Positions 5,251 to 39,300 of a stretch of DNA of 64,000 bases are shown here, in pieces. Position 1 is the first letter of the stretch. Each line of letters begins with the position of its first letter. The notes below the pieces were generated by a model. That model worked only from the letters and a program-made list of their open reading frames with translations. It was not told the DNA's origin and did not search any database. This DNA is from Rhizoctonia solani. Lineage: Eukaryota; Basidiomycota; Agaricomycetes; Cantharellales; Ceratobasidiaceae. The stretch is from positions 62,001-126,000 of the forward strand of contig NC_057382.1 in the NCBI RefSeq assembly GCF_016906535.1, read 5' to 3'. Made by a program: the position numbers and the translations under genes.

Positions 5251-6491
5251 GAAATATTCAGGGTCCCCCCTGTCGCATAGGCAAGTGCTCCGGCGCTTAA
5301 TCAGCCCTTAAGCGCCGACGCACTAAATGCGCCTTTTCTCCATCACCCGGGCATCCCACACTGCCGAATTGCTTGCGCTTAGGTGCGCATGTTTGTGCGC
5401 TCCAGGACGCTGGGTCAAACTCCCAAAACGGACAACATTTGGTAGAGTTATGCCCCATTTACTGTAAGTACCCAATGCAGAGGTATCCTACCTTTGGGAC
5501 TGTTTACTCCAAGGATGAAACACTTAGCCTTGGGACATCTAAGGACCCACACAGGCAAATACTGCCTTGGGGCAAACATTGCCTTGGGGCAAATATTAGG
5601 ATCTGTTGTTTGTTTACTATGTACCAAGGTATTGGCTCCCTCAAGTGTTTCAGTTGCCACATGTACCTCCTGTACCCCCTCTTGGTATCAATCATGTATA
5701 TACTTGTTTGTGCGCCTTCTCAGGGTATAAAAGGACCCTGTGAAGACGCTTCTAATGCATCCATTTATCCACTCTTATATATTGACATATACACACAAGC
5801 CTTTAACAGCTTATCTGCGCATTTACTTTAGTGATTGACTCACTGTAAATAGCATAGGAGGTTATTTGGCGCACTAAGACCATAGGCCAGTCCCAACAGA
5901 CACAGGGTAACCTATTAGTGTACTTACTGCGACCCTGTGCCCCTTGACTGTCACAGTTGTTGAGTTCAACATTGAGTATAGTGCGACGATACTGTAAGGA
6001 TTGTTGTGATTGAGTGATAGTGTTTCAATCCACCATACCCCTTATATTGTAGATAGCTTTATCTACAATATCTCATAAATCCTAGATATATTTTAGGTAA
6101 ACCCCATAAGTCTTAAGTCTTACTTAAGCATATATAAGTCCTATACTTATTAGGCCAATCCTATAAATCCTGTACATTAGTCAGGTAACCCTCTTACTTA
6201 AGGTACTATCCTAGAGACCTTAAGTATACATACCCTTGGTCACTTAGGCTTAAGTAACATTGGTCTAAGGTACTATACATAACCAACCACCTGCACTTCA
6301 TAGTTGCTAGACTATTTGTTAGGAGTTGTTATTCCTGATAACCTAGCCTATATTGTGCATATATTCTGTGCATATATTCTGATTCTTAATACTAGTTCTT
6401 AGTTATTCCCATATACATTTTGTATATAGTAATTCTTTCTTACTCCTGTACTTACACAACTCTTAACACCGGATTTGAGCGACACCGGCAA
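5251..6491. other. Gene-free repeat-rich stretch, possibly LTR-like or the edge of a DNA element
   Basis: A GC-rich start (5270-5420) is full of gcgc/gcgctt motifs. A 17-bp tandem pair beginning TGCCTTGGGGCAAA lies at 5563-5579 and 5580-5596, and a TATA-like tataaaagg is near 5725. From about 6050 to 6430 the sequence is AT-rich with many cttaag/taagtctta motifs and a short direct repeat of GTGCATATATTCT (about 6355-6381). A 152-codon ORF here (5373-5831) has no recognisable protein features. It could be a decayed LTR or the subterminal region of the Tnp2 element that follows; I could not find paired ends. Confidence 0.35.
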
Positions 6492-7340
6492 ATGGTCATA
6501 TCTGTAAGTTTATCAGCCATTTTTAGAGTAAGGACTTACTGTTACAATAGAGCCACGCCCTCAAATCCATGCTCAATTTATGCGCCTTAAATTGAGCAAA
6601 TGATGCCGGCGAGCTTGTAGCAAAGTTCGACAACGCTGGCAAGGCTGTCTGGTTTGTTAACGGGATTCTCGTCCCGCATTTTGATCGTGGGTTCGACAAA
6701 GAGTGGGTAAAATGGGGGACGAGCGCCATAGATGTGATACGCGACCAGAGCCGCTGGGACCCTTCCAACATTGAGTACTTGGAGTCTGTGACCGATGCCA
6801 AATGGAGAGTTGTTGTTAAAAATGGGGTCTATGCGACGATGTTTCGTGTTTGGAAGAAGTACCAGGGAGATGCAGGCAAAGGGCGGGAGTGGTTGGATAA
6901 ACGCAGGATGTTGAACAGACGTCAATCCCGGAAGGATGCGGTGAGTACCAAGCTTTTTCCATTGAGTAATTATACTTACGCTCGTGGCAGAAAGCTAAAA
7001 GTTGCATGGCAGCGCTCAAAGGATTGGGACTTGAAGTCGGGGGATTCAAATTTACCGGCGACCCCGGTTTTCAATCGTCCGAATATTCAGACCCGGACGA
7101 TCAGAGCCGCCGTGTTGTTCAGGAACCCGAGTACCGAATCGCAAAGGTTAGTAACAAGTAACTATTTAGGGTTTGAGTTACAAACACTAACCTTTGCTCA
7201 GCTTGTCCAATTTTTGGGGGCGCTTGATATTGCATACAAAGACAACAAGAAACAATGCGGAAATCAAAAGGTCACGCGCCGGGATTTTGATAAGGTCAAT
7301 AACAATGTACCTAAGCTCAAGAAGGGGAAGATACCGGCTT

Positions 7341-7786
7341 TGTCATGACCTTCATTGGCATGACATGATTTTTTACTATTTTCTACCTTTTTTCCGAGAT
7401 AGTTTCCTTTTTTGGTATATATTTATGACTCATCAAGATCACGTGACATATTTGATATATGATGTGAAATTGTAAATGACTCACTGTTTTGTATTGTTGT
7501 TTTTGATGTGGCTCCTCTCATGTATTTAAACAAGGTCAAGTCACCGCTAAACAGCAAGACTTGACCTCTTCGTCAATTCATCCTAAGCTTACCCTTACCC
7601 ATTGCCCAGGCCCCTAGTTGGCCATAAGTGCACTTTACTACAAAACCCTTAACCCAGGCCTCGTTGCCCTCTACCCATACCATACCCCTTGGGCCTTCGT
7701 CGCCCCTCTTTGTCTCATAGTCCATTGGTGATAGGGCCACGGACTTTAAACCTACTTGTATCATAGGTCCGAGCTTAGTCGTGACA
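7341..7786 (+). repeat. 5' LTR of retrotransposon B
   Basis: 446 bp, TGTCATGAC at the start and GTCGTGACA at the end as short imperfect inverted repeats. It is identical to the 3' LTR except at 7571 (C here, T at 13850; the trinucleotide is TCG here and TTG there). Confidence 0.97.
7523..7567 (+). promoter_or_regulatory. LTR promoter: TATA-like box and inferred transcript start of element B
   Basis: TATTTAAA at 7523-7530 lies about 25 bp before AGCAAGACTTGACCT (7553-7567). The latter is the inferred RNA 5' end because its complement forms the primer site after the LTR. AGGTCAAGTC just upstream can also pair with GACTTGACCT, forming a hairpin around the start site. Confidence 0.5.
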
Positions 7787-7788
7787 CT

Positions 7789-7801
7789 AGGTCAAGTCTT
7801 G
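7789..7801 (+). promoter_or_regulatory. Self-priming primer-binding site of element B
   Basis: AGGTCAAGTCTTG lies two bases after the 5' LTR. It is the exact reverse complement of CAAGACTTGACCT at 7555-7567 in the LTR, right where transcription should start. This is the Tf1/sushi-type arrangement, in which the RNA 5' end folds back and primes minus-strand synthesis instead of a tRNA. Confidence 0.7.
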
Positions 7802-8139
7802 TTACTCGTACTCTTGTCGACAAACGAGAACTGCGCTTAGATAAGCACCAAAGCCTGAAACGGCATCACATCGTAGCCCCTGTGTAATAATCAAAGACAG
7901 GAATACGAGTGCCAGTAAGGTTGCGGGATAGCCCTTTGCCAGCAATCGTCCGCATACCAGGGTGTCTGCACCTTTAGTCATACGCTGTTAGTCAGCCAAA
8001 CCTCCGCTTACTAAAAACCTGACTAATCATCACGCTTGTACACAGCTGTTGATATTAGAAAAGGATAGTTTAACGCTAGTGGGAAAGCAAACAGTTAGTA
8101 GTTAGCACTATAAATCCGTTATTACCTATCTGATCGAGT

Positions 8140-8661
8140 ACCAATTTATATTGGGAACGCACTCTAGTGTTCGACTTTTTAGATCTCATCCTCTTTGCCA
8201 TCTTTTGGCCCTACTCCTTCGTCACCCGCTACCTCTACCTTGAAAAAACCATCAACGATATCAATCACATCCTAGTCGGTCGCATTAATAATCTCGAAGA
8301 ACACATTGCTTGTATTGAGGAACCAGGGCTAGTCCAAACAATAGCCCATATCAAACACCACAAGTCTTTTGCCGAGCGCCTTAATAATATATACAAGGCA
8401 GATCTTCAAGAGCAAAAAAACCTCATTGCCAATCTCGAATCCCATAATTGAGATCTAGCTCTCACAATTGAAGAGCAAGAAAGGCGCATTGAGGAAAAGG
8501 ACCGACTATTGGTGGAAAAGGAGCTAGAGCTAGATAACTTCCACTGTTCTATTCAGGATATCACCCAAGACGGGAAGGGTCGAATCCACTATTACAAAGA
8601 ATATGAGTTTTTTGCAGTCTCATATGACAATGCCTGGCTTGGGCGCAATAGGAGAGACTAA
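8140..8661 (+). pseudogene. Coiled-coil ORF upstream of gag in element B, interrupted by TGA
   Basis: The open frame runs from about 8134 to TAA 8659-8661, broken once by TGA at 8449-8451 (AAT TGA GAT). The translation is Leu/Glu/Lys/Asn-rich with heptad-like spacing (residues such as ERLNNIYKADLQEQKNLIANLE and IEEQERRIEEKDRLLVEKE), suggesting a coiled coil after a hydrophobic start (FLDLILFAIFW). No ATG opens it; the earliest usable start is GTG at 8167. It overlaps the first 59 bases of gag in another frame. It could be an extra element ORF, or the 5' part of a longer gag reached by frameshifting or splicing. Its function is unknown. Confidence 0.45.
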
Positions 8662-10168
8662 TTTGTCTTCTTCTCAAGTTCAATCAGGATGGTCCGCTCC
8701 ATCCTCTTGTACACATACTCCTGCTCCTGCGGCTGAGCCGCCACATGTATATTCCCCCATGTCTTTTAGCCAGATGTCAGATTGTGAAGTACTTGATATG
8801 GTTGCTCAAAATATGATTATCTTAAAAAAAGAGTTCTCGCAATTACAAGGCGCCTATGAGGCACAACATGATCAAATAGCATTGTTAAGGGCAGAACTTG
8901 AGGAACATTGCGATCAATCGCAAAATCAACACATATTCTATTCCACCCAAATCCAAGGAGCGGCCGCTTCCATTCAGGCTGTGCAAGACCAGCTACTTCA
9001 CAATTCCACTACTTGTCCCACGGCTCCTCCCCCACCTCCACCTTCTGGCACAGCCACCTCCACCAATCCCCCAATTGCTCCTGCGTCTTCCAATTTGGAT
9101 TTGAAATTTGCTAAACCCAATAAGTTCAATGGCAAGAAAGAGGACGCCCTCAATTTCATTATTGCCTGCCAGGCCTATATAAGAGCGAAAGGAGCAAATA
9201 GATCCCACGAGGAGAAAATATTGTGGGTAACATCATATTTTGAAGGTGCAGCAGAAGATTGGGTTCGCCCCTATAAAGAAAGGAAGGTTTTCAGGGGAGA
9301 AGCAGTCCCATTATTGGAGGATATTGACGTATTCTGGGCAGAATTCACTAAGCATTATGTGGACACTAATCGCGATGAGAAGTACCGTCAAAAATGGAAT
9401 AATTTGCGGCAGAAAGCATCGGTTCAGGAATACACCCAAGAATTCCAACAATACTCCGTGTCCCTGGGTTACAGCGACGAGACACTGCGCAATAAGTACT
9501 ATGATGGCCTCCAAAACAATATTAAGGACATCATGCTTTCAACTATGTTCCAATGGCGCCGCGCTACTGCCCAACAAGTCTATGATAAGGCAGAGGAGAT
9601 CGCAAACCATATCGAATCTACACGCTTATCTCATCCTTCTGTCTCCACAGTCCGCGCCCCTGCTAATGCCGCCCCCACTACCACTTCCACTCCCCCTTCC
9701 ACCCGCACTCGTCTCAACGTGGGAGACAATGTCTATATGATTGACCCAACCACTCGCCGCGCCAAGAAAGGCGCTATTACTTCAATTGTTTGTACTACTT
9801 CTGGCAATATGCCCAATGTTAGGTGGAATGGGGAAACAAAGGACACAATGATTCCTTTCCCATCTCTTAAAAAAGACGAACGCCCCACCGCTGCTGCCCC
9901 AGTCAAGACCATCATTGCTCCTACCCCTGTCCTGGCCTCAAACTCCAAAGGCCCAGGCCCCATGGATCTTGATGGAAGAGGATTTTCAAACCTCACTTGC
10001 CATGTATGCGGTGGAAAAGGTCACTTTGCACGCAATTGCCCTTCCAAGCCCATGTCGGGACATGTGGCTAATGTTGAATGGTCTTGGGAAAGACCTAAAG
10101 AGGAAAATAGGATTGAAGTTGTCTCTGATGAGGAAGAGTTGGGAAAAGGAAAAGCCAAGGCCAACTAA
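8603..10168 (+). CDS. gag: Gag capsid/nucleocapsid protein of retrotransposon B
   Basis: A 521-codon ORF from ATG 8603. A Pro/Ala-rich N-terminal region is followed by a capsid-type domain (about residues 165-290: KFNGKKEDALNFI, YFEGAAEDWVRP, VQEYTQEFQQY). A second Pro/Thr-rich linker precedes a CCHC zinc knuckle near 467-480 (CHVCGGKGHFARNC, spacing C-x2-C-x4-H-x4-C) that would bind element RNA. The ORF is intact although pol is not. Its end overlaps the open pol frame, with a slippery heptamer about 20 bases before the stop codon. Confidence 0.92.
   Translation: MSFLQSHMTMPGLGAIGETNLSSSQVQSGWSAPSSCTHTPAPAAEPPHVYSPMSFSQMSDCEVLDMVAQNMIILKKEFSQLQGAYEAQHDQIALLRAELEEHCDQSQNQHIFYSTQIQGAAASIQAVQDQLLHNSTTCPTAPPPPPPSGTATSTNPPIAPASSNLDLKFAKPNKFNGKKEDALNFIIACQAYIRAKGANRSHEEKILWVTSYFEGAAEDWVRPYKERKVFRGEAVPLLEDIDVFWAEFTKHYVDTNRDEKYRQKWNNLRQKASVQEYTQEFQQYSVSLGYSDETLRNKYYDGLQNNIKDIMLSTMFQWRRATAQQVYDKAEEIANHIESTRLSHPSVSTVRAPANAAPTTTSTPPSTRTRLNVGDNVYMIDPTTRRAKKGAITSIVCTTSGNMPNVRWNGETKDTMIPFPSLKKDERPTAAAPVKTIIAPTPVLASNSKGPGPMDLDGRGFSNLTCHVCGGKGHFARNCPSKPMSGHVANVEWSWERPKEENRIEVVSDEEELGKGKAKAN
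10141..10147 (+). promoter_or_regulatory. Putative -1 ribosomal frameshift site gag/pol (GGGAAAA)
   Basis: GGGAAAA is in the X-XXY-YYZ phase of the gag frame (codons TTG GGA AAA). A -1 shift there enters the pol frame with no stop before the protease. The gag stop follows at 10166-10168. I did not fold the downstream RNA for a stem or pseudoknot. Confidence 0.55.
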
Positions 10169-13100
10169 GGAGTAAGGCACTTGGCTGTATGCTCGCGGAT
10201 TTGCATTATGTAAACAATGATTTCGAAATACTCTCTTTATGTAATACATCTCAAATATATGCATTGTTCTCTGCAAATCCGTGTGAGACTCCTAAAACCC
10301 AAAAATCAAGTTTTTTGGCTAAACCTTTTCAAGGAAAAGCCATGATCGACTCTGGAGCAACGTCCTGCTTCATTCACCCTCTTTTGGTAGAAACCTATTG
10401 ACTCCCAACCTATTCACACCCAATTCCTAAAAAACTACGCGTTATTGATGGCCGAGAAATTGATTCTGGTCAAATCACTCATTTCACTCAATTCAAATGT
10501 ACCATTGGCAATCACACCGAAGAACTAGAGTGCCATATTTCCAATATTGGCAATCACCAATTAGTTTTAGGAATGTCATGGTTGAAAAAACACAATCCCC
10601 AAATTTTGTGGGAAAAACATACACTCATTTTTAATTCCTTGTATTGTTCCAACAACTGTCTAGCCATACCTGCGGTTCTAGAACTTAAAGCAGTAGAGGA
10701 AATTCCGTCACCTTACCAAGAATTTTCCAAAGTCTTTTCTGAGGAAGAATCGTCTAAATTGCCGCCTCATCGCCCTTACGATATTGCTATTGAATTACTC
10801 CCTGATGCAAAACCTTGACATGGCCCCATATATAGTCTAGGCCCCCGGGAAGATGCAGAACTTAGGGAAACTATCAAAAAGCAACTGAAAGCGGGCTTGA
10901 TTCGTCCATCTAAATCTCCCATGGCTTCCCCAATACTATTTGTCAAGAAGAAAAACGGGAAATTACGCATGTGTGTAGACTATCGACGGTTGAATAGCAT
11001 GACCAAGAAGAACGCTTACCCCCTGCCCTTGCCACAAAACCTTATTGAGAAACTACAAGGTGCTAAGATCTTTAGTAAATTTGATCTTAGGGCAGGCTAC
11101 AACTTAGTCCGAATTAAAGAAGGCGATGAATGGAAAACCGCTTTCAAAACTAAATACGGATTATTCAAATACTTGGTTATGCCTTTTGGATTGACAAATG
11201 CGCCGGCAGCCTTTCAGGACATGATGAACAAAATATTCAGAGACCTCTTGGACGTTTATGTCATCATCTACTTGGACAATATTCTAGTCTTCTCTCTGAA
11301 TGAAAAAGATCATGAAGCCCATGTGCGAGAGGTACTCAAAAGGCTGCAGGATAATGACCTTTTTTGCAATATTGAGAAATGCCATTTCCACGTCAAGAAA
11401 ATTGATTATCTAGGGTTTATCATATCTGAATTTGGTATAGAAGTCAATCAATCAAAAGTCACAGACGCCTTAAATTGGTCAACACCTAAGAATGTCAAAA
11501 ACATCCAAGAATTCCTAGGATTTGTGAACTTCTATAGACGGTTTATCCCTAATTTTGGAAATATGGCACAACCACTGTACAATTTGCTCAAGAAAGATAG
11601 TAACTGGAGATGGGAATCAGCAGAACAACAATCTTTTGACAGCCTTAAAAAATGTCTTACTTCAGCGCCCTTGCTTTTACAACCTGACACCACAAGACAA
11701 TTTTATGTGGAATGCGACGCATCGGATTATGCCACTGGAGCAATACTATCCCAACGCAACTCTGAAGGGAAATTGGCTCCAGTAGCCTATCTGTCCAAAT
11801 CCTTATCCCCTGCCGAAAAAAATTACGATATCTTTGACAAGGAATTGTTGGCAGTCATTAGGGCATTTAAAGAATGGCGCCATTTGTTAGAAGGATCTGA
11901 ATTGCCGGTTCAAGTTTTAACGGATCACAAAAACTTGGAATATTTTTCTACATCCCAATCCCTTAACAAACGACAAATCCGATGGGCCAATTTCTTGGTG
12001 GACTACAATTTCCAAATCATCTACAGGCCTGGAGCACAGAACAGGAAGGCAGACATCCTCTCAAGACGCTACAATTTGATACCCCTTGAAGGGGGGGTAG
12101 AGAACCAAGTTCTCTTGAAACCGGAACTTTTCATTTCATCCATTACTCCGGATCAAGAAATCAATGATCTAATTGGCGAGGCAATCTATGAGGATAACCG
12201 CCTTAGGGAAATTCTGCAGAAACTCCAGAATAAGGAAAAAGTCATAGATTGGGAATTGAAAGAGGGCTTACTGTGGTATCAAGGGAAAATATTTGTACCA
12301 AAGGACGAAACCATCAGAAATCTCATTTTGGAATCCAGGCACGACGCATTAGCCGCAGGTCATCCAGGACAAGCCAGAACATTGGAACTTGTCTCCAGAA
12401 ATTATTACTGGCCATCCCTGAAGAAATTCGTGAACTCTTACGTCAGTCACTGCGAGACATGTATCCGGTCCAAACCTACAAATCAAGTTCCCACAGGCCT
12501 ATTAAAACCATTACAAATCCCTGAACGGCCCTGGGAAGATATAGCATACAACATGATTGTAGGACTACCAGTTTCAGAAGGCTTTGATGCTATCCTTACT
12601 GTCATTGATCGATTTTCAAAAATGGTACACTTTATCCCCACCCAATCCACAGCATCTGCCATCGACGTTGCCAATTTATTCATCACGTATGTATGGAAAC
12701 TACATGGTTTACCCAGGAGCACAGTTTCAGACAGGGGCCCCACATTTAACGCCAAATTCATTCGTCATTTGTATAAAAGGCTGGACATTAAGCCAACATA
12801 TTCAACAGCATATCATCCACAAACCGATGGACAGACGGAACGCATCCAAAGGGAAGCTGAAATCTTCATACAAATGTTTGGGAATCATCGTCAATCAGAC
12901 TGGGTGTCACTATTGCCATTGGCCAAATTTGCCTTAAACAATTTAAAACAAACTTCCACAGGGAAATCCCCGTTCCAAACATGTTATGGCTATAACCCAA
13001 GATTTACAGTAGGACAAAAGTCAGATGAATCAGTCCCAAACGCAGATGAACATGCAGAATTCTTGGAAAAGGGCTATGATGAAGTCAAGGCAGCGTTATC

Positions 13101-13608
13101 AATGTCCCAAGAAAGGATGAAACACTTCTATGATCAACGTCACAGAGAAGAAGAAGAAATTCAAGTAGGGAACAAAGTTTGGCTAAGTCATCAGAATATA
13201 TCCACCGACAGACCATCCATCAAGCTCAGCCACAAAAAGCTAGGCCCCTACTTGGTAATTGAAAAAATTGGATCACATGCGTATAAATTACAACTACCTC
13301 ATACCATGCGCATACATCCAGTCTTTCACATTAATCTTCTGACAAAATTCCATCCTGACCCTCATGGACGCGACCCTCCTCAACCTGCACCTATTATTAC
13401 AGAAGAAGGTGAGGAAGAATATGAAGTTGAAAGAATCGTGGACAGCAAATGGAAAGGGCGTGGCAAATCAAAGAAACTCTGGTATTTAGTCAAGTGGAAG
13501 GGATACGACGAAGGAAGCAACTCGTGGGAACCAGTGGATAATGTGGGTAACGCTCAAGAAGCCATAGAAGAATTCCACATGGAACACCCTGATGCAGTTG
13601 GAGCTTGA
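10147..13608 (+). pseudogene. pol: Pol polyprotein of retrotransposon B, with two nonsense codons and mutated catalytic residues
   Basis: In the -1 frame after gag the order is aspartic protease (DSGA at 10348-10359), RT (MCVDYRRLN; MPFGLTNAPAAF), RNase H (ECDASDYATGAIL; LTDHKNLEYF), integrase zinc finger, integrase core (VSDRGPTF; DGQTERI) and a C-terminal chromodomain (EYEVERIVDSKW...LVKWKGYDEGSNSWEP). The frame is cut by TGA at 10399-10401 and 10816-10818, which lie in one frame with the 903-codon remainder. The RT box reads YLDN (11269-11280) instead of YxDD, and the first integrase Asp is replaced by Asn (AYNMIVGLP, codon 12550-12552). All four changes fit C-to-T in TCG on one or the other strand. 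The stop is at 13606-13608, directly before the polypurine tract. Confidence 0.93.
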
Positions 13609-13619
13609 AGAGGGGGTAA
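13609..13619 (+). promoter_or_regulatory. Polypurine tract of element B
   Basis: AGAGGGGGTAA lies between the pol stop codon and the first base of the 3' LTR, the expected place for the plus-strand primer. Confidence 0.75.
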
Positions 13620-14065
13620 TGTCATGACCTTCATTGGCATGACATGATTTTTTACTATTTTCTACCTTTTTTCCGAGATAGTTTCCTTTTTTGGTATATA
13701 TTTATGACTCATCAAGATCACGTGACATATTTGATATATGATGTGAAATTGTAAATGACTCACTGTTTTGTATTGTTGTTTTTGATGTGGCTCCTCTCAT
13801 GTATTTAAACAAGGTCAAGTCACCGCTAAACAGCAAGACTTGACCTCTTTGTCAATTCATCCTAAGCTTACCCTTACCCATTGCCCAGGCCCCTAGTTGG
13901 CCATAAGTGCACTTTACTACAAAACCCTTAACCCAGGCCTCGTTGCCCTCTACCCATACCATACCCCTTGGGCCTTCGTCGCCCCTCTTTGTCTCATAGT
14001 CCATTGGTGATAGGGCCACGGACTTTAAACCTACTTGTATCATAGGTCCGAGCTTAGTCGTGACA
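13620..14065 (+). repeat. 3' LTR of retrotransposon B
   Basis: 446 bp and matching 7341-7786 at every base but one (T at 13850). It is followed by the target duplication GGCTT at 14066-14070. Confidence 0.97.
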
Positions 14066-15070
14066 GGCTTGGGCTGTTGACAAGGAATGGGAACGCACAA
14101 ATCCAAAAGCATGCAAACAATCGGCTAAGCGAATCGACTCGGACCTAGACAAAATCCCCCAAGAAGAAAAATTCGACAAATTTATTGATTGGTACGCACC
14201 TCAACCACGGGAGTATCTATCCCCTTTGCCATCACCATTCCCCTTGGCATCCCCCTTGCCTTCCAAATCTAACGCTCCGGCCAATACCCCTGTTGCCTCT
14301 GTTATGTTAGCTACGCAGAGCCAGGTCATTGAACCGACCCCAGTTACAACACCTATTCTCCTTGATACCGACGTATGCCATTCCCCCGGAAATGCAGCGC
14401 ATCAGCCCCCTTTGGATGTGCCTGCAGCTTTGTTAATTGCCCCCAGTCATGCCTCCGGGTCTGTTCATCCATGGGGTACAGCAATGCACGCCGGTGCGTT
14501 GGTGGGGTTTGGTCCCAACGTAGCCTTTGCGGCTCCAGAAGCACCGGCGTTTGTCCAGCCTGCGTTTCCGCAATACGGTCAGTTAGGCGGGGCTGCGTTT
14601 ATGCCACACAACGTATTGCCGATAGGGTATCAACCAGGTTTTCAGCCTGGATATCTGTATGGACAACCCGGCAGGAACGGAGGCACTCAAGCGCATATTC
14701 CAATCGGTAAGTTGAACATTTATGCGTAAAGGTAGAATACTTATCGTTATATTTTAGACCCTACTCTTCAAGGTGAGACAATTGGTCGCTTGTATCCCTC
14801 AAACGGCATGCCTCCACCGCCAGAGCTTCATGAACAAGAAGCCGCCGCCGCTGCCACGCAACACGGCCAGACTGCGCAGCCAAATATGCCCGGGCCAAGT
14901 CAGCCATCAAAACCAGACTCCAAGCAGCCAAAGCACGCAAATCAAGAATGGCAAGCAATAGCGGCAACGGCAACGGGGATGGTAATCCTGGGCTTGATCC
15001 ATTGCGACCTCCTCGGAAGCGTCGCACCCAACAAGTCAAGCAAGTCAAAGTTGTTCTCCAAGGTGCGTAA

Positions 15071-15403
15071 CTCACCTGTTATATACCCATTTTCCTGTTG
15101 TTTTTATGAACTATTATCAACTCACTTTTTGCCCTGTATTATTGTCTTTTGTTGTTGATAATTTCCTTTATTATTGTGTACGCGTCCGATTCTCAACAAC
15201 CTGTTCGGTTATTATATGTTCGATTACATGGATGATCATGGCTCTAATATTTATCACTACCTGTAACAATTCTCATATATCAAACGTATACTATTGTGTA
15301 AAAGAAATAAAAACGCACCACAGTTGTTGTTATACTAGCTTAGTCATCAACGCGCATGTTGTCTCCATCCATCAAGTTGTCGGGCCTTGTCTGTTCACTG
15401 GGA
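15071..15403. other. Short gap between convergent Tnp2-element genes
   Basis: AT-rich, no supported ORF. It separates the 3' ends of the split plus-strand gene and the minus-strand transposase pseudogene. Confidence 0.4.
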
Positions 15404-18400
15404 TTAGATAGCAAAAGATTTATAAAAAGAACGCACTGTTATCATTGCAAAAGTAAGCCAAAAGCGCCCGTATGACATCTCGATATTGGAAAGCGCAAAG
15501 AGGCCGGTAAATGCGGTTGCCGGCACTGCTTCCACTGGCTGGAGCTCTTGGTATTCCCATGCGCCGATTCCAAGAATATGATCCCTAGATTTTACAATTA
15601 CCATGTAAATACCTTAGAGAAAGAAAATACATACCAATGATTCCATGGGAAGGCTGGTGGTTCTGCCGGAGCAACAAATCTCTGAACCATGACAGCCAGA
15701 AACTTGTGCTCCTCGCCCAGAACAGCCACTGTCGATTTGTAAATACCCTGAATGATCACAGGTACTTGGTCGCCGATATAACCGTAGCGTGAACCAAATC
15801 CTTGGGTATGGTTTGCCGAGCCGTACCGAACGCCGTACCAACGGAAGTGGGGGTAAGTAAGAGTGGATCGGCTGGGATGAAGCTGAACTCAAGCGCCTTC
15901 TGGTGGCGGCGCGCCATACCCGTAAAAGCGAACATTGTGCAGACCTACAGGGCGGTGATTATTGCAATACTCAACCATAAGATTATAATATCCCCGGTGC
16001 TTGTGATCTTGGAAGTTGACTTTGGCGGGGGCGGTTGCCAACCGAATGTGCTCTATATAATAACTATATATAAGTGCTCAAAAAAAAAGCATAGACTCAC
16101 CTTGTTCAAGAAATTGGGCGTCCCCGGCCAGAATTGCGTCCAGCCGACCATGCTGAACTTCGTGTTCCGGGGCGTCTCTCATGCCCTGTAATAAAAGTTT
16201 TGTGGTTGCCGTATTGTCGTCGGTTGGCCTTTCAATCAATTGTAATTCGTTAATCTATATAAATATTAGTAAACCAAATATGAATTAGAGGGGGATATAC
16301 ATAGCGGTAACACTCAACGCAACGCATAAACCCCTTTGCCATTGTTGCTTCAATTTCTCCACCTCCATGCCCATTCTTGTTGACGTTGATGAGCATTTGG
16401 TTTGCACGCTCAAATTGGGCAGTTGAAGTGTTGTAAACACTTCCATATTTATAGAGGTGGTCAGGCAAGTGAGTAATGGCGTGGAAACTTGGGGTGAGGT
16501 GGATATTCATATCAGTGAACACCGTGCCGACCTGTTCAAGTAACTGGCAACCTTGTTCTACCTCCTCTCAAGTAATTCTGTGTCGAGTCAGAAGTGTGGT
16601 TCCAACACAGAACCGTAATAGATTTGCAAACCAATTGCGAGGGTTTCGCAATGGCATGAATTCATGCCAAGGAGGCACTTTGTCAAGCTTGCCCCCATCC
16701 AAGTCGTTGACATGGTTCCGACGTCTACGAAAAGCCTTTGCATTGGCCTTCTGGGCCTTGTAATGCTTTGACCTCTCGCTGCCGCGAGGAATATCCCCAT
16801 CAGGGATTGAGTTGCCCACACGCCAGGCCTCAAAATACGAGCCGATCATGATAAGGCGCGAGAGGCGCCGCTGGTCGGCCTTAACGCGTCCCTTCAACCC
16901 TTGAGCCTGTGATGTATATTAATAATATGTACGTTGAATATATGCGAACTTACATGGGTAGGGAGCCGGCTACAATAATGAGGGAAAATCGTCCGCGTGA
17001 TAAAAGCATTGTAGCGTGCCTTGGGTGTCTCACCGGCAGGCTGCCGATGAAAACGTTTTCGGAGCATCCCTTGCTTGTATATATACTTACTTTTGATAGC
17101 CTCTGTGAGCCCAAGATCTACCAAATGCATTACATCAGTGGGCGCATTATCAAATGCGTAGAAACCGGAGAGCCGGTCTAGTTCGGTAAACGTTGTCCCG
17201 GTCTCATTACGGATGTCATTGCGTTTGTGCCATTCCGCACGGAGCCATTGGTGCTTATCCTGCAAATGTTTGTGTGGATCGCAAAGATCATAGCCTATGG
17301 GAAACATTAAGTAAGTCAAATTCGCATATATGATCATACACTCACCTTCATGGTCATAGCCTCGCCCAGTCGACAGCAAACAGGCCCGTAGCTTGCAATA
17401 TGGGCAGTGATTTTCCTCCGCAGTAGCACCGACATGACCTGTACATTTGATGCGCGCGATCCAATCAACCACAAGGACCAATAAGTTTGCGTAAACGCGT
17501 CGGTCTTGAATTTCCCCCGTCTCGGCATCGTGCACCGGCAAATCAACGCCTATAGTAGCTTTAGTATATAAGTGAAAATCGTTAACTGGGCATACCATTA
17601 GACAGAGAAATTAGATTGTCTATAAGAGGCTCCATCATTTGGTTGAACGCGTAGTCCTTAGGCTCCGTTGGTCCAGGGAGTACCATCGCAAGGATCGTGT
17701 TTTCGAATAAATTCCATTCAAAATAAGGAAGATTATTGATAACAATATACACTCCGTTGGAAGTATAACTTCCACCGGCAGTGTAATTGCCTCCGTTTGC
17801 CTGGTATCTGCGCATATATGTTTAAATGAAAAGATAGCGTTAAGTTAAGTACTCACCCATCCGCATTAAGTGTAAGGCTAAGGCCCAAAGGTAAGCGCGC
17901 AAGAGATAAAGGAAAATCTCCGGCAGGCAAATCCACGTACTCGCCGTCAATAAATTGTTGGGTGAGTCCCGTCGCATGCGCCCGCCATCCCCATCCCTTG
18001 CTGATGTCCGAAAACCGTTGGTTGGCTGGCATGTCATCAAACCACTCCACAGGATCCTGGGGTCTTGGTGGGTTTTTGGTTGGTTCATCTTTGGGGTTGT
18101 CGTTGTTACGCCAGTGTTGACAAAGCTCAGACATACCAGGGCGGGACAGTAGACGACCGAGAGCAGCAGGGAGAGGGATGTAAGGAAACAATTTGGACGG
18201 GCTACGCTTGATAGTACCATCGGCAAGTAAACGCTCTGTGTATAGAACACCGGGGCACCGTTCTCCAACGTTCCAAGTGCAACGAGGTTTGGGTAGCTGG
18301 TAAAGTTGCTCCGTCGTGTATTGCTTGCCGCATGTTGGCTTGGGACACACAGGATAGATCCTCATGAGCTCTGAGTGATCCATCCCGAGCCGACGCTCAA

Positions 18401-19612
18401 GCGACCGTAGAGTAAGTGGCATCTGTCAAATCTCTTTGACAAGCGGCTGGGGGAGGTATTGCGCGTTGGCCATAAGTGCCAATTTGTGAGACTCCAGTAT
18501 TGCTTGGACAGAGTCCTGTGTTGCGTGGTTGAATGCATACTGAGCCCAAGTGCGCAAGTAGATGTTCCGCAGAGTTGGGTGAGCATCAAATAGAGGCATA
18601 CCGGCCCCTGCATCATTGCCCGGAGGTCCGGGAGGCCCCTTGGCATCATCTGGTGGGACACGGATTGGAGGCTCCTCCACCAGCACTCCCTCGGGGTCGT
18701 CTGGGTTGTCTGGGTTGTCTGGGTTGTCTGGGTAAGTATCAGCATTGTCGTCGTCTTCTATGTATGGATCGTCATGGTGGGGTTCTTTGGCGTCAGAAGG
18801 AAGGGGATCGTTGCCGAGGGGAAGCGGGGCAGGCCTAGTTGCTCCAGAAACAGATAGATTCATGAGATATTTGCCGAAATAATCAACATCCAAGCAAGGA
18901 CTGCACGTGGTAAGGCATGGATCGTCTGAGTCTGAGTCTGAGTCTGAGCCGGCGGAGGAATTGTCGCATAAGTCAAGCAATTCGTCCGGTTGAGTAGAAT
19001 TATCAATAGACTCGAAAAGCGGTGGGGTACGTGGAGATTGTAATAAGTAAGTCTTAGAACAAGAGCCAAGATGGGGCGATCCAGGTCTAGAACAAGAATC
19101 GGCGGGAGTATAATGCTTGTTGGGTGGAAATGTGTCGAGATCAGTAAGGTGACATGCATTAATGCTAGTGCTAGAGATTGTTGCGGCTTGATTATCTAAG
19201 TCGCTAAGATCAGGTGATTGGCGGGGAGGGGCTTCTGAGGGGCACGGGACAGACGGTCCCGCCCGCACATTGCATTGTTGGGCCAGCGGGTGGACACCGT
19301 TTGTCCTTCAATGTGCAGCTATAGTCCCTGGCTTCTGGTGATACCAAAATGGATAACATTTCAAGCAGTCGCAGAGCCTCTTCCGGCCAAGCAAGCAGTC
19401 AGAGATACGTTTCTTGGACTGTAAACTACGGTGAAGCTCAAATTAATTAAACTTAGATGAATTAAACTTGCCTTTCTAGCCTTTTCCTTCGCTTTTAGTA
19501 ATATTTCCGTATCGTACTTTGCCATGTGTGCTAGGTGTTGACTTCGATACGTTGTGGCGCGGGTGAGGAGAAGAACAAAATTGTCTAAGTCGTCCCCGAT
19601 GCTCATGGTCAT
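15404..19612 (-). pseudogene. Tnp2-family (CACTA-type) transposase with three in-frame TGA codons
   Basis: Read on the minus strand from about 19612 (MTMSIGDDLDNFVL) to a stop at 15404. Exons include an acidic, Asp/Pro-rich segment (about 19268-18429), a Cys-rich segment (CPKPTCGKQY), and the conserved core (FEWNLFENTILAMVLPGP; HCPYCKLRAC; DNAPTDVMHLVDLGLTEAI; GMLRKRF). The C-terminal part has ITHLPDHLYKYGSV and ends GRFWLTFAM. Introns are short and regular. The frame is broken by TGA at 18426-18428, 16568-16570 and 15889-15891, each inside otherwise continuous protein sequence and each preceded by T. The first two exons (19612 to about 19250) do not join cleanly by eye. The product would cut and rejoin CACTA element ends; this copy should not. 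Confidence 0.85.
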
Positions 19613-19714
19613 TAAATTTCAAATAGACCCTGAAGATCGTATTCCTATTCTAAGTCTGGTCAATTACTGTACAACAACGCCACAGCAAAGCATGATCTGA
19701 GATCCAATCTAAGT

Positions 19715-20215
19715 CTGGACACATGCTGTCCAAGTCCCGTGCCCGCCGCACACCCTTTGTTGAAAAGGGGGTGAAGTCCTGTGGAGGTTGATGGTAGTAG
19801 GTGTTTGGGTGAGTACCCTGAAATTTGCAGCTTCTGACGCACTGACCAGCATACCAAACAACGCGCACACGTCCCCCCTTCTGGGAGAGGGTGGGCGCAT
19901 CCTATTTAGGTGTTGAAGAGTAATGGATTGAAATGTAACGATGAAACAATTATGTATGTAATCAAATAAATATATTCCATTTATCCCAAAGAAACGAAAG
20001 GCCCAAAGTGTCGGGCACAGGCATCGCAGAGATATTGTCCAGCAATGGACCAGCATTTGTATCCCGACAATCGACAAATGCTGGACAGCCTGGTCTATTA
20101 CTGTACCGAACGCGACAAAAAAGTCCAGTTCATGCCTCGACAAAGGCTGGACACGTGCCGTCCAAGTCCCGTGCCCGCCGCACACCCTTTGTCGAAAAGG
20201 GGGTGAAGTCCTGTG
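19715..20215 (+). repeat. Pair of 69-bp direct repeats differing only at CpG sites
   Basis: Copies at 19715-19783 and 20147-20215 both start CTGGACAC and end GAAGTCCTGTG. I see three differences, all at CpGs of the second copy: CACGTG/CACATG, GCCGTCC/GCTGTCC and GTCGAA/GTTGAA. They lie just beyond the 5' end of the Tnp2 transposase and may be subterminal repeats of that element. Confidence 0.8.
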
Positions 20216-22353
20216 CATGTGATGTATCATCTGTGGTACGTCCCACGAACTCCAAACAACGAGTCGGGCGGAAAATCGAAATGTATACTATTTCCGTAAC
20301 AGCTGTAAAACTAAAAAACAAGGGTGCGGATTTTCCGCACCCTGCCAGCCTTCAGTGTGAGAATATCAATGAGTACACATATCTGGAATTATTATATGAA
20401 TAAATACTGGCCACTGAAGATCCCAAGTCTATATATACTAGTATATACATGTCGTACTGGCCAATTTTGTAGGTGAACGCGGATGCCTCAAACTTAGATA
20501 CACGAAATGTATTGGTGATTTCGGATCCGTGTAGGGGCCTTCAGCTAACCATAAAGATCAGTGTTGCTTCATACCTTTGATCCTAATCAAACCAAGTCTC
20601 CGAGCAAAATATTAAGAGACCCAGGCTTCTTCAGTGCGGCTCAAGACAGATTTACTCTAGCCTCGGTTTAGTGTGCGTACAAATACATCCAACATCAATC
20701 TCACAGGTTTATCTCCACCGGGTGTGACTTACTACCCCATTCCAGATAGGGGTGCATTTATTGGCCATAGTGATAACAGTCGGCCGGTGCCTGTATAGGC
20801 TTCGAGTTCCAATCGTGACATCATCGAATCTCTGATGATCGATGACCTAAAATGGGACCTGGTCGTGCGCCCTCTCATTCGCTGGTCATGGCCCCAGCCA
20901 TGACATCGTACATTGGCTTGACGCCGAGAATACTGACCATATCGGAATCATAACACTTAGGCATGAGTGAGCCACGCAACTCACATAAAATGACGAGTCT
21001 TAAGTCATCTGTGTTCTTTGACACAGAGAGGAGACGATTCTCTCATATATACGGCAAAATTTTCGAGTACCCAATCTTTAAAGAATATGGGTACAAATAC
21101 TATATATGGGCAAATAGGTCTTTTGGTTGGGGTAGCTTGGGGCAATATCACGAATGATACAGCTAATAAGCAAGAGATGGAATAAAGAGATTAATGAAGC
21201 ATTATCGGTGCCCCGAGTCCCCCACCCCTCACCTGACCTGACCTCCGACGACTACGCCCTCGAGCTCCCGTATTTACTTCCATATTTTATATATCATCGT
21301 TCGTCATCTATTCCTCACTTACACAGTGGCCTATGTCGGAGCCTAATTTAACTAATTTTAGTCCCAAATAGGATCCCACTCCCAGGAACGGCAATACGCT
21401 GAATTCGAATGCATTCAAATGTCTCATCGGTGCAGAGAACCAGCAAGTTTGTATGCCCGGGTAAATCTTGAGTGAATAAGGCTTGCATCGACGTCATGAT
21501 CACTTCATGTCTCACCCCCAAATCTCAATGGACGGAAATATTCCTCAGAAACAGCATGATCGCCCCAGACATTTTTTAATTACATGGTGAACATATATTT
21601 GAACCGGATCATCTTAATATGGTTTCGCTTTTGTAACCGACGCGATTCTAGGGCATACGGCTGGGGGAAGGAGGCTAACTCGTCCTCCGGGGAAAAACCA
21701 CCCCGGTTTCTGAGCTGATATACAATACTCTTATCACATACCTCATTCTCGGTTCTCGTTTCTATTACTCCAAGCCAAGCAATCATGCCTGATCCCGCGC
21801 GCGGTACCAAGTTCGTGACGGATTTTTCAGCTTTTATGCCGGAGTGGCACTTTGCCTATAGTGAACCCCGTCATACTGAGCATGCAGGCAGCAATGAGAC
21901 TGAAATCTCCGTACTTCTGAGAGATTGCTCGCAGAATACTGCAAAGGCAGCATTTTGGTAGTTTGTTGTCTCCGAGCATAATCCCTCAGACAGGGAGCCG
22001 AACAGAAGGCCTCGATAATTATCACTCCCTTGCCGCTAGCACTAATGGATATCAGGAGCCGGTCTACTGGCCCAATTTAATTGGGGTTGATTTTGAGCCA
22101 TATGGAAAGGTCCGATGATGCCGCATCCCCCTCAGTTCACGACCTCGATCAAGGGAACTACTACGCAAACGGGGGACGCCGTAAGTTGGGTTCCCGTAAT
22201 ATCAAGTCTTAGAAAGAATTTTCCACTCGATTTGCTATTGGAGCATTGTCCTTCTACTTGTATAAATACTGCATATGGCTAAGTCAAGAATATTCAGAAT
22301 TCTCCCCTTGTCTTAGGTCTACTTCTCATTGTCATCTATAGTTGCTTCACGAT
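20216..22353. other. Gene-free stretch
   Basis: No supportable coding region on either strand. It contains a perfect 9-bp stem hairpin with a 3-base loop at 20322-20342 (GGGTGCGGA...TCCGCACCC). I could not fix the outer end of the preceding Tnp2 element in it. The last 200 bp should hold the promoter of the oxidoreductase gene. Confidence 0.4.
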
Positions 22354-30986: not shown

Positions 30987-31072
30987 GAAAGACAAAGAGC
31001 AATATATTACAGGGTAACTAATCCGACAATACATGGAAGCATACACAGCTTGCTCAAAGTACCGCAAGCCCA

Positions 31073-31609
31073 CTAGTAGTCGTCTCCTGCCGACGACGCA
31101 GGCGCCTTGGGACTCCGACGCCCGGCCTTTACTTGCGCCAGAGTCCAGTCGCCTTCGCCCTCGTTCGACTTCTTCCCTACGATCCTCTCGTTGTAGGCAG
31201 CAACCTGCGAGTCCAAAACACCGATCAATCACCCATCGAGCTATACACTCTGGCGAACACGTACCACTGCCGTGGTGGGCTGATCCTCGTCGCCGATCGT
31301 TACGACGGCATACTTTCCGCCGGTGCGAAGCTTGTATCCGACACCCTGTGTGGTGTCAAGAGTGGCCAGGTCGTTGTAGAAGATCTGACCGGCGAACGGG
31401 TGAAGATTCCCTGAGTGCGAGTCCGACATCAGATCTAGATGAAAAAAGCTGGGGCAAAATGACTGACCAGAGGGGATGTTGTCAGTCTTGTAAGTGTATG
31501 TTCCCTTGGGACCAAGGTTCATCACGACGTTGATGAGGTTATCGTCATCATCGTAGGTGATGGTTGCGGGGGCACAGGTGTAACCGGCGATGGCGAAGAT
31601 GGAAGACAT
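31073..31609 (-). CDS. Small acidic protein of an unrecognised family, left inverted copy
   Basis: Minus-strand exons 31609-31468, 31410-31265 and 31204-31073 encode 139 residues starting MSSIFAIAGYTCAPATITYD. Features are an acidic YDDDDNL block, VVMNLGPKGTYTYKT, HPFAGQIFY, LRTGGKYAVVTIG and a Ser/Ala/Lys-rich C-terminus ending GDDY. No signal peptide or membrane helix is seen. The pattern of short beta-prone segments and the size suggest a soluble all-beta protein such as a small lectin-like fold, but I cannot assign a family. It is identical to the copy at 32367-32903 and diverged from the one at 40626-41163. Confidence 0.78.
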
Positions 31610-32366
31610 TGTGTTTGTACAGGGGAGTGAGAGGAGTTGTGATGCTGTGATGCTGAGAACCGAGCAGCAGCAGAGCGTGTTATATACGAGAGGACAGATG
31701 ATGGTGCTCGTATGATAGATAATTTATTTTCCGTATGGAGGCTCTGCTAGGCACGCATGGGCGCATTCTGTTCTTCGGGCTCGCAAGTACACCTGTCAAG
31801 CCAACCGGATCGTTTACATCTTGGGGAAGGCGGAAGTGTTGTCGCACATATGGAGCCGACCTCGGCAACTCGTGCTCGGTGGTTGTTCATACTGAACAAC
31901 CGTGCCTGATTGTTTATTGAACTTAGCTGAGCGGGTGGCTGTGCATGTGTCTGCCAATTAGGGAAGCCGAGACCGGTAACTGGTTGATCCCAGCGCCTAT
32001 ATGATCCTATCCACGACATTAGATGCTGACAAGTTGACATTACTTCCTGCCTTCTCTTGGGACTCTGCTGATCTCATCAAAGCGCTATGTCCAGCGTCTT
32101 GTCAAGGACCAGGCACCTACTGCATCTTTAGTGGTCCCAAGTACAGTTACCGGCGCCGGCATTAGGTACAAAAACTTTTCCGCACTTTGAACTTCCGAAG
32201 AACAACAGAATGCGCCCATGCGTGCCTAGCAGAGCCTCCATACGGAAAATAAATTATCTATCATACGAGCACCATCATCTGTCCTCTCGTATATAACACG
32301 CTCTGCTGCTGCTCGGTTCTCAGCATCACAGCATCACAACTCCTCTCACTCCCCTGTACAAACACA
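31610..32366. promoter_or_regulatory. Divergent promoter region of the inverted gene pair
   Basis: 757 bp between the two start codons. The outer parts belong to the inverted arms, so both genes share the same proximal promoter (TATA-like tatataac about 80 bp before each ATG, inside CTCGTATATAACACG). Only the central 431 bp differ. Confidence 0.55.
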
Positions 32367-32903
32367 ATGTCTTCCATCTTCGCCATCGCCGGTTACACCT
32401 GTGCCCCCGCAACCATCACCTACGATGATGACGATAACCTCATCAACGTCGTGATGAACCTTGGTCCCAAGGGAACATACACTTACAAGACTGACAACAT
32501 CCCCTCTGGTCAGTCATTTTGCCCCAGCTTTTTTCATCTAGATCTGATGTCGGACTCGCACTCAGGGAATCTTCACCCGTTCGCCGGTCAGATCTTCTAC
32601 AACGACCTGGCCACTCTTGACACCACACAGGGTGTCGGATACAAGCTTCGCACCGGCGGAAAGTATGCCGTCGTAACGATCGGCGACGAGGATCAGCCCA
32701 CCACGGCAGTGGTACGTGTTCGCCAGAGTGTATAGCTCGATGGGTGATTGATCGGTGTTTTGGACTCGCAGGTTGCTGCCTACAACGAGAGGATCGTAGG
32801 GAAGAAGTCGAACGAGGGCGAAGGCGACTGGACTCTGGCGCAAGTAAAGGCCGGGCGTCGGAGTCCCAAGGCGCCTGCGTCGTCGGCAGGAGACGACTAC
32901 TAG
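32367..32903 (+). CDS. Small acidic protein of an unrecognised family, right inverted copy
   Basis: Exons 32367-32508, 32566-32711 and 32772-32903 encode a 139-residue protein identical to the left copy, and the intron sequences match too. Total identity, including introns, implies very recent duplication or ongoing gene conversion between arms. Both copies have clean splice sites and no stops, so both look functional. The third, diverged family member shares exon lengths 142 and 146 and the same intron phases. Confidence 0.8.
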
Positions 32904-32989
32904 TGGGCTTGCGGTACTTTGAGCAAGCTGTGTATGCTTCCATGTATTGTCGGATTAGTTACCCTGTAATATATTGCTCTTTGTCTTTC

Positions 32990-36312: not shown

Positions 36313-39300
36313 ATGGTTGATAAGCGGAAAGTATGGTGCGGTTGCTGTCGAAATTATGTAACCACTGAGACATTCAAGTCTCACCAACGGGTTCGAGAGG
36401 GGATGCCTAGGCCAGTTCGCAAACCTCTAGGCAAGCCAAGGAGGAGACCTAGCACTGAGAAGCTTCGGTAAGTAATAATTTAATCTTGTTATATGCTAAT
36501 TAAGATTCATTTAATCTACTATACAGACAACGCTTACGCCGGCATTCAAGCCGGGAATCCATCAACGCACACCGAGCGAATTCTCCCCCATCCCAGTTAT
36601 GCAGCCCCAGCCAATCCCCATGCCGGACCTTTTCCCCCCCGAGCCCGAAGATATAGACCATGATACAGAACCGTATCATTCGGAGCTCGAGACCATACCT
36701 GAACTCAACCTAACCCATATTTGGGAACAGGTCATGCGAGCACGCAGCCCGCTCGACTTGGGAGATCAAGAGCTTCGCTCCGAAGGCTCTCGTTCACACA
36801 GCACACATACCTCAAAGACGCCATTGGATTCGTTGGAGCTTGGAGGAAGTGACTCGGATGAGTCGGCGGATGTGGACAACGTGGAATACGACCCTGCGAC
36901 ATATGGATTACCGCCCGAATCGTTCATTCGGGAGCAATTGTTGGTCAAGGTTGCTAAACTGGGTACGTATTTTGTTTGATTTGCTCTGCATTTATCTTAT
37001 ATGCGCTTCAGCTCGAACAACTATTGGCCCGGATGATCTAGATACCATCCGGGACTTTAATTTTTTTTAGGGAGAAGACTGCTGTACGTACACATGAAGC
37101 AATGCGAAGAACTTACTGTCGGTCTGAAACCAAAACTAAAATCCCGAGTCTTAAGTCTATTAGAACTCGAATGCTTGCGTTATCGGCACTGAAACCAGTT
37201 AAATACCACTGCTGCAAGAACTCATGCGTTTGCTACGCAGGATATCTTGCCAATCTCAACGATTGCCCTTACTGTCATTCCCCTCGCCTTGACCCTTCTG
37301 GACGTCCATATTCCATTTTCCAACATATTCCACTTATCCCCCAGCTGCGAGCACTCTTTCGGAACCGAGCAACATTCTTAAAAATGCTATATTGGTCTGA
37401 ATTCCAGCGGAGTGGAACACACGTCCGGGATGTATTTGACGCCGTACTCTATGAACTATTATGCGCTACGCGCGTGGTTGTCGATGGAGTTGAACAGCCA
37501 TACCGACATTTCGAGGACTTTCAAGAGCTTGCGCTGGCAATCGCACTGGACGGCATGGGCCCATTTAAGCGACAAAATCATTCATGTTGGCCAATACTTA
37601 TTATTATCTACAACTTCCCCCCCGAAATCCGAACACACCTCTCCAACATGATATGCACCGGCGTTATTCCTGGTCCCCACTCCCCCAAAGACCTCAACTC
37701 CTTCCTCCAGCCGCTAATCGACGAACTTGTGGAGCTGTCTCGAGGTGTTGAGGCCGTAGATGTGGTTAACGAAGAGGTTTTTGCTCTTCGTGCGCATATT
37801 CTTGCGGCGTTTGGAGACTTACCGGCAATTGCAAAATTGATGGAGTTTGTAGGCCATAATGGCCGCTTCCCTTGTCGCTTATGCAAGATTATGAGTATTC
37901 TTGGTCGCACAGCCAAGAACGCATCCCATCTGTATTGCCCACTCCATCGTTCAGACGACACCGGACTTGACCCCTACGAACTCCCACTCCGCACTCACGA
38001 GGAGTGCCTTAAAGATGGATACGATGTCCTCCGAGCTCCAAACGACACTGTACGGGCCGACTTAGCAACTGATTGCGGCATCAAGGGTGTGACGTTGTTG
38101 GCTAAACTCTCGTCGATCCGGATCCCCGACTCGTTCCCCGTCGAAGCTATGCATCTTGTGTGGATAAACTTGATCCCTCAGCTTGCAGACTTATGGCGCG
38201 AAAAATTCAATGGAATTGATTCTGGATTTGAGGATTACTTGATCAACGCGCTTGTCTGGAATTCTATGGGGGACATGTGTGTTGATTCTTCGCGTTCGAC
38301 ACCTTCTTCTTTCGGCTGTCCTATTCCTCATTTCAGAAATCGCTCACATTTTACTGCTGAATCTTGGTCTCGCTGGGCAACCCACGCGGCCCCAAATTTA
38401 CTGCGCCGTCGCTTTATGGACTTGAGGTATTATATTCATTTTGTTTGTCTAGTCAACCTAATGAACAAATGCACCGACCACGCCGTCGACCGCTCTGAGC
38501 TCCCGGCGATTCGTCGAGGCTTCATTGAGTGGGTGGAGGATTTCGAACAGTAAGTAATGCTTGCGCGTATATACATATTGGATGGTATATCAACTATGTA
38601 ATAGGATCTACTACCAGCACGATCCAGAGCGCATACAAGTGTGTACAACAAATATACACTATTTGCTTCATATCGTGGACTCAATCGAGCGTCTTGGGCC
38701 CCTACCTGGCTACTGGGCATTCCCTATGGAGCAATACTGTAGCTTCATTGGGGCCTCGGTGAAAAGCCGGCGATTTCCTTACGCGAACATTGCTCGGCGC
38801 GTTTGCGATGTCGCTCAGCTTTGTATCATTCGCGAAATATACGACTTACGCAATATGATCAGCTTCGGGCAAACCCGAGCATCAACCGAGGAGGACTTGA
38901 AGACTGAGATGAGGGAAGGTGATAAATTCGAAAACTGTATGTTTATCATTTATTGTTTCAATGTTAACTAATTATGTCTAGATCCCAACCGAATATTCCT
39001 AACCCCCTGGGCCGAGGCGCTCACTGTAACTCCTGAACTACGCGCACAGATCTCCAAGTACTTGGCAACCACCTATGAAGTACGAATTGGAAAGAAATTA
39101 GCTCTAGAGCTGATTCCCGATACCCTCCAACAATGGGGCCGAATGCGAATCACCCAGGGAGGCAACTTGATTCAAGCACGAGGCTACCATAAGCTACGAT
39201 GGGACGGCCGCGACGCATCATTTGTTCGGGTATGTTTTAGTTTATATATATTAATATTGACTCAATAAGTCTAGTATGAACTGCTGGCCGATCGACTTGC

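Follow-up and report, generated by a model that had tools for sequence, protein, structure and literature searches.

The locus studied here raises the question of what process inactivated the nested transposons of a Rhizoctonia solani chromosome. The window, meaning the whole stretch of 64,000 nucleotides analysed (C13:62001-126000; contig NC_057382.1), contains a retrotransposon, element B, inserted into a DNA transposon, element A, and both are interrupted by stop codons. An earlier note on this DNA had ascribed the inactivating changes between positions 6492 and 20215 to TCG becoming TTG, as a process resembling repeat-induced point mutation (RIP) or methyl-CpG decay with a TCG preference would leave. 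We compared these elements with their copies throughout the genome (40,703,773 bases in 16 contigs), which we take to be that of R. solani AG1-IA strain XN, an agaricomycete of the order Cantharellales. The changes share a sequence context, lie on both strands, recur in several transposon families and are fast relative to other substitutions. We consider it likely that they were produced by a RIP-like, TCG-preferring C-to-T process that acts on transposons, on both strands and mostly at CpG, with the order TCG >> CCG, ACG > GCG.

The two elements are arranged as follows.

6469..7340, plus strand: distal part of element A, 96-97% identical to the C6 and C13 copies; holds the stop at 6593
7341..14065, plus strand: element B, a Ty3/gypsy long terminal repeat (LTR) retrotransposon with a chromodomain, inside element A; target duplication GGCTT; Pfam matches to gag, reverse transcriptase (RT), RNase H, integrase and chromo
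7341..7786, plus strand: 5' LTR of B, 446 bp, TCG at 7571
13620..14065, plus strand: 3' LTR of B, 446 bp, TTG at 13850
14066..18825, minus strand: main part of element A, a DNA transposon

The C6 copy of element A runs uninterrupted across the insertion site of B (7340 joined to 14066 onward). The label Tnp2 for element A comes from the first reading, and no Pfam match was found on three pieces of A. Seven in-frame stops lie in these elements (for the three on the minus strand the low end of the codon identifies the stop).

6593..6595, plus strand: TGA after T in element A; TCAA in the C6 and C13 copies
8449..8451, plus strand: TGA after T in the open frame upstream of gag in element B; TCGA in 2 of 20 copies, TTGA in 3 others
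10399..10401, plus strand: TGA after T in pol of B; TCGA in 7 of 20 copies, TTGA in 2 others, a gap in 2
10816..10818, plus strand: TGA after T in pol of B; TCGA in no other copy
15889..15891, minus strand: TGA after T in element A; TCAA in the C6 and C13 copies
16568..16570, minus strand: TGA after T in element A; TCAA in the C6 and C13 copies
18426..18428, minus strand: TGA after T in element A; TCAA in the C6 and C13 copies

The open frame that holds the 8449 stop (approximately 8266-8600) is in a different frame from gag and appears by eye charged and coiled-coil-like.

Direct reading bore out the description given in the earlier note: all seven stops are TGA with T immediately 5' (TTGA), and the two LTRs of element B differ only by TCG at 7571 versus TTG at 13850. 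A pair of repeats, said to differ only at CpG, also agreed with its description.

19711-19788 and 20143-20220: repeats with a 69-bp core, with three CpG differences in the core

These three differences lie in ACG, CCG and TCG contexts, with the TCG/TTG one at 19761. The proposed origin of the stops from TCGA fits six of the seven, indirectly for four of these; 10816 fits a CpG change, and its origin from TCG is not clear, the other copies of B among the 20 reading CCGA, ACGA, CCAA, CTGA and others. At the four element A stops (6593, 18426, 16568 and 15889) TCGA itself is present in neither the C6 nor the C13 copy. The simplest explanation for TTGA in the window versus TCAA in those copies would be changes on opposite strands of the TCGA palindrome; the two copies are closely related, and their TCAA may reflect one shared event. 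At 8449 the sister copies of B carry TCGA, TTGA, TCAA or TTAA. Intact copies with the same TGA were not found: a few other copies share TTGA at 8449 or 10399, and each of them (L014, L019, L020, L022 and L030) carries further stops.

The absence of TAA and TAG nonsense codons, also claimed, held for the frames within the window and elsewhere was reduced to a bias toward TGA. When 20 B copies were read for gag and pol in the frames of the window copy, where indels could mislead, 19 distinct nonsense events emerged: 16 TGA (12 after T), 2 TAA and 1 TAG. Four copies of a second Tnp2 family, read in the window frame, had 8 TGA (5 after T), 2 TAG and 1 TAA, and among the best 150 of 788 RT candidates the eight with an in-frame stop all had TGA. 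Because TGA alone is expected from any CpG-limited process, it is the preceding T together with the copy counts that points to TCG.

For the element B family there were 62 candidates and 40 scored matches. The internal region was compared in 20 copies, the one in the window plus L012-L030; apart from these, one match (L011, a twin on C11 with no substitution) was excluded, ten were used for LTRs only and nine were left aside. The LTR pairs were drawn from ten same-strand candidates, minus L011 and L012, plus ten more; of the resulting 18, two from the second ten lacked a match and 16 were used. Pair and trio counts were restricted to sites with unchanged flanks, and in unpolarised counts the direction C to T was assumed.

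The LTRs of one element are identical at birth. Across the 16 within-element pairs (6,650 aligned sites) all 41 transitions occurred at CpG, alongside 1 transversion. Changes were found at 28 of 61 TCG sites, 6 of 47 ACG, 4 of 43 CCG and 3 of 32 GCG, and at 0 of 2,540 NCH sites (cytosine not followed by G); the excess of TCG over other NCG (28/61 versus 13/122) gave p=3e-7. In the 20 B copies, trio-polarised C-to-T fractions were 0.51 for TCG (95% 0.46-0.56), 0.17 for both ACG and CCG, 0.08 for GCG and ∼0.07 for NCH. TCG was the most mutated NCG in 20/20 copies, with a fraction of 0.89-1.00 in L022, L026, L028 and L030. Identity of the B copies to the one in the window is 82-87%, so that old changes weaken the signal; younger comparisons are sharper. 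A recognition site limited to TCGA was ruled out, as TCGA (0.57), TCGC (0.48), TCGG (0.59) and TCGT (0.48) mutate alike.

The DNA transposons carry the same signature. Between the C6 and C13 copies of element A, differences were detected at 80/124 TCG, 20/311 other NCG and 6/1,568 NCH sites (p=4e-36), with 7 transversions. These changes are interspersed on both strands, and the base 5' of TCG has little effect. The second family is represented in the window by one copy.

37042..38550, plus strand: second Tnp2 transposase (PF02992), window copy

This copy has 33 TCG in 37042-38000, and those on C16, C8, C9 and C15 have 0, 0, 0 and 1, respectively, in 1.1 kb each. Compared with C16, differences were present at 27/27 TCG, 9/11 CCG, 8/14 ACG, 2/13 GCG and 5/333 NCH sites, with 1 transversion; compared with C15, which is only distantly alike, at 13/13 TCG, 17/30 other NCG and 61/215 NCH. 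We suggest that the other copies lost TCG rather than the window copy gaining it, because the window copy has an open frame and a TCG density like that of the host, and because CpG is known to change in that direction. Alignment of copies, which the earlier note had proposed, gave C-to-T changes spread unevenly over CpN and NCG, with TCG on top in element B, the LTRs, element A and the second Tnp2 family (C16, C8).

Base composition was compared within and beyond the window. TCG makes up 22% of NCG in 6492-20215 and 32% in each of the control regions 22354-28190 and 43547-55045. In eight arbitrarily placed 3-kb genome samples, which were not screened for all transposons, TCG was the commonest NCG in seven, with a share of 29-34%. 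TC made up 26% among NCH in the pooled samples, and in one of the seven (L051) the TCG share was slightly below its own TC share. The eighth (L055) had 3 TCG in 3 kb and by eye contains a Ty3 gag and protease fragment. These samples show that bulk DNA is not TCG-depleted, as judged from base composition and not from a count of mutations in genes.

At the other extreme, twelve RT stretches of 2 kb, taken from two additional gypsy groups, contain 0-8 TCG each, with CpG observed/expected ratios of 0.05-0.40, and six of the twelve lie within open frames of 1,187 codons. Identity is 99.1-100% among L035 and L037-L040 and 99.0-99.4% among L041-L044, with L036, L045 and L046 more distant. The residual TCG sites are still variable (3/3 differ between L037 and L040, 5/6 between L041 and L042), and, given how few targets are left, in many pairs NCH transitions are more numerous. 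The composition of these families fits survival by loss of targets; a similar picture would arise if methylation were avoided without any mutation.

A further feature of the window bears on whether duplication itself triggers the process.

30987..32989: inverted duplication of 790 bp, arms 30987-31776 and 32200-32989, 423 bp apart

It holds frames of 160 and 171 codons without a Pfam match, and elsewhere it was found only in the C11 twin, aside from one weak 137-bp match per chromosome. The twins are the left end of C13 and the right end of C11, which were near-identical at the individual points compared, with matching points from C13:22858 to C13:100000 (window 1-38500). They carry many small indels, resembling assembly error. 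Elsewhere in the window, 23026-25095 encodes a GMC oxidoreductase that matches a pyranose oxidase structure weakly; its identity is 100% with one R. solani record and 87% with a second.

Several observations weigh against a RIP-like, TCG-preferring process. The arms of the inverted duplication differ by one transversion despite 36 TCG per arm, and the C13/C11 duplication has 1 substitution (at ACG) in ∼13.6 kb compared. The second Tnp2 copy in the window is itself unmutated, and simple parsimony on the window, C16 and C8 copies would place the change in the window copy; C8 hardly differs from C16, so that their shared losses are one event and not independent, and between C9 and the window every comparable NCG is changed (TCG 23/23, ACG 9/9, CCG 12/12, GCG 5/5), leaving no preference visible. 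The LTR-like pair of L012, 3.6 kb apart, has 29 differences with only 4 involving CpG, and was excluded as probably not a true pair. The trios also show A-to-G changes, with 19/43 outside CAN in the L020/L021/L014 trio; many are TTG-to-TCG, as parallel change of two copies would be expected to give. Two integrase candidates had an in-frame stop among 150 of 692, one TGA and one TAA, the latter off pattern. Finally, the sparing of genes is based on base composition, not on mutations in genes. The inverted and C13/C11 duplications, which RIP in the strict sense would be expected to mutate, may postdate the last period of activity. Because two near-identical duplications are almost unmutated, we describe the process as apparently RIP-like and transposon-associated and do not call it repeat-induced; homology-triggered RIP was for this reason not adopted as a settled conclusion.

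The strongest competitor is ordinary methyl-CpG decay, in which 5-methylcytosine deaminates spontaneously in transposons and the TCG lead comes from context-biased methylation or repair. It accounts for the finding that non-TCG CpG sites change well above NCH (13/122 versus 0/2,540 in LTRs; 20/311 versus 6/1,568 in element A), and a general methyl-CpG component alongside the TCG preference is probable. However, TCG stands ∼3- to 10-fold above other NCG, so the contexts do not seem to decay alike; moreover, TCG is exhausted in the second Tnp2 family (27/27) while NCH changed at 5/333. In the LTRs, TCG changes at least ∼230 times and other NCG at least ∼40 times as often as NCH (lower 95% limits over the NCH upper limit). 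The vertebrate methyl-CpG excess is ∼10-fold. Against that value plain methyl-CpG decay looks too weak, it leaves the TCG preference unexplained, and we regard it as improbable on its own. Of the two processes named in the earlier note, the RIP-like one fits better than plain decay.

A TC-preferring cytosine deaminase (APOBEC- or DddA-like) acting on transposon DNA or complementary DNA (cDNA) would share the 5' T preference of known enzymes of this kind. Such an enzyme without a CpG requirement should also change TCA, TCC and TCT, yet NCH changed at 0/2,540 in LTRs, and this explanation is very unlikely. Editing of retrotransposon cDNA would leave DNA transposons alone and was ruled out, as these are changed on both strands. 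The OTT_1508 deaminase family gave no match in a search whose controls were silent too, making it uninformative, and other deaminase families were not searched. A sequencing or assembly artefact at methylated sites is scarcely credible: the indels between the C11 and C13 twins do point to assembly errors in repeats, but the available description of the XN assembly gives PacBio plus Illumina reads with Pilon and does not mention nanopore, the families low in TCG retain open frames as long as 1,187 codons, which miscalls would fill with TGA, and sister copies at 8449 vary among four sequences.

The RIP-like process favoured here is probably linked to methylation. The order TCG >> CCG, ACG > GCG with little NCH suggests CpG methylation plus a step favouring a 5' T. 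In such a scheme both LTR retrotransposons and DNA transposons would be targets, TGA stops would arise from T|CGA, and a copy could lose every TCG. The first step might be cytosine methylation by a DNMT1-like enzyme encoded within C3:2179001-2185500, the second would be accelerated deamination, and low-TCG families could persist since few targets are left. The C3 locus is the sole PF00145 methyltransferase locus found; its exons best match DNMT1 structures, with a weak match to a BAH domain, and a genome search with limited sensitivity for split exons found no close paralog. We infer from published work on basidiomycetes, and not from a phylogeny, that it belongs to the Masc2 group. Near a chromosome end (C2:5076-5339) there is a Tet_JBP match below the cut-off, which could be a transposon-borne TET dioxygenase. 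More tentatively, and with the odds slightly against it, Agaricomycetes may have, or have regained, a TCG-directed mutator that works through a DNMT1/Masc2-class methyltransferase without RID, is episodic and can strip a copy of all its TCG; retrotransposon families that continue to spread would be those that had already lost nearly all TCG and CpG with their frames kept.

These results would place a TpCpG-type transposon-mutating process in a subphylum where hypermutation had reportedly gone undetected, and in a genome in which RIP was judged not prevalent by the paper describing it. When the RIP thresholds of PMC7884421 were applied, 11/11 heavily mutated or target-poor copies failed, as did the unmutated window Tnp2 copy and the pooled samples. 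Because such dinucleotide thresholds are blind to the TCG pattern, other basidiomycete genomes may have been misread. Dating is also affected: with the rate from PMC7884421, the pooled age of the 16 LTR pairs is ∼3.0 million years for all sites and ∼0.07 million years without NCG, the latter reflecting one substitution. The locus moreover offers a concrete case in which to test what enzyme causes RIP-like mutation when no RID has been found.

TpCpG RIP-like hypermutation in Microbotryum was reportedly described by Hood et al. 2005 and Horns et al. 2012, as related by papers citing them. The process proposed here resembles that of Pucciniomycotina (Microbotryum), where, in the portions of PMC5381629, PMC4352252 and PMC12730594 available to us, TpCpG changes to TpTpG on both strands of gypsy-like elements and direct evidence of a RIP pathway is said to be lacking. 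It differs in its host, an agaricomycete, in its graded CCG and ACG component, and in extent, with up to 27/27 sites changed per copy versus a mean of 1.7/35 per copy reported for a pol fragment in an excerpt from PMC5381629. The earlier remark that TCG-targeted mutation is less known in Agaricomycotina agrees with the accessible text of PMC4014442, which calls the TpCpG bias Pucciniomycotina-specific and not expected in R. solani. The corresponding parts of PMC7884421, on R. solani AG1-IA strain XN, describe RIP as 'not prevalent' in Rhizoctonia from two dinucleotide indices, and PMC2621366, in the section at hand, presents RIPCAL as blind to trinucleotide bias. In the passages concerned, PMC12730594 quotes hypermutation as not detected in the subphylum, and PMC6980582 disputes such reported non-detection with CpG-biased hypermutation in Tricholoma. 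Our literature search, made without subscription papers and preprints, found no report of TpCpG hypermutation in Agaricomycetes.

Within the Agaricomycetes, the closest parallels are R. solani AG8 (PMC4014442) and Tricholoma matsutake (PMC6980582), both with CpG-biased C-to-T changes; as far as the consulted portions go, those reports describe a dinucleotide CpG bias, in contrast to the trinucleotide TCG here, and the AG8 changes distinguish nuclei and affect genes and repeats alike. The RID-dependent RIP of Neurospora and other Pezizomycotina is alike in making C-to-T changes on both strands of repeats and in being able to saturate, but unlike Neurospora RIP the target here is CpG, and above all TCG, instead of CpA (NCH 0/2,540 in LTRs).

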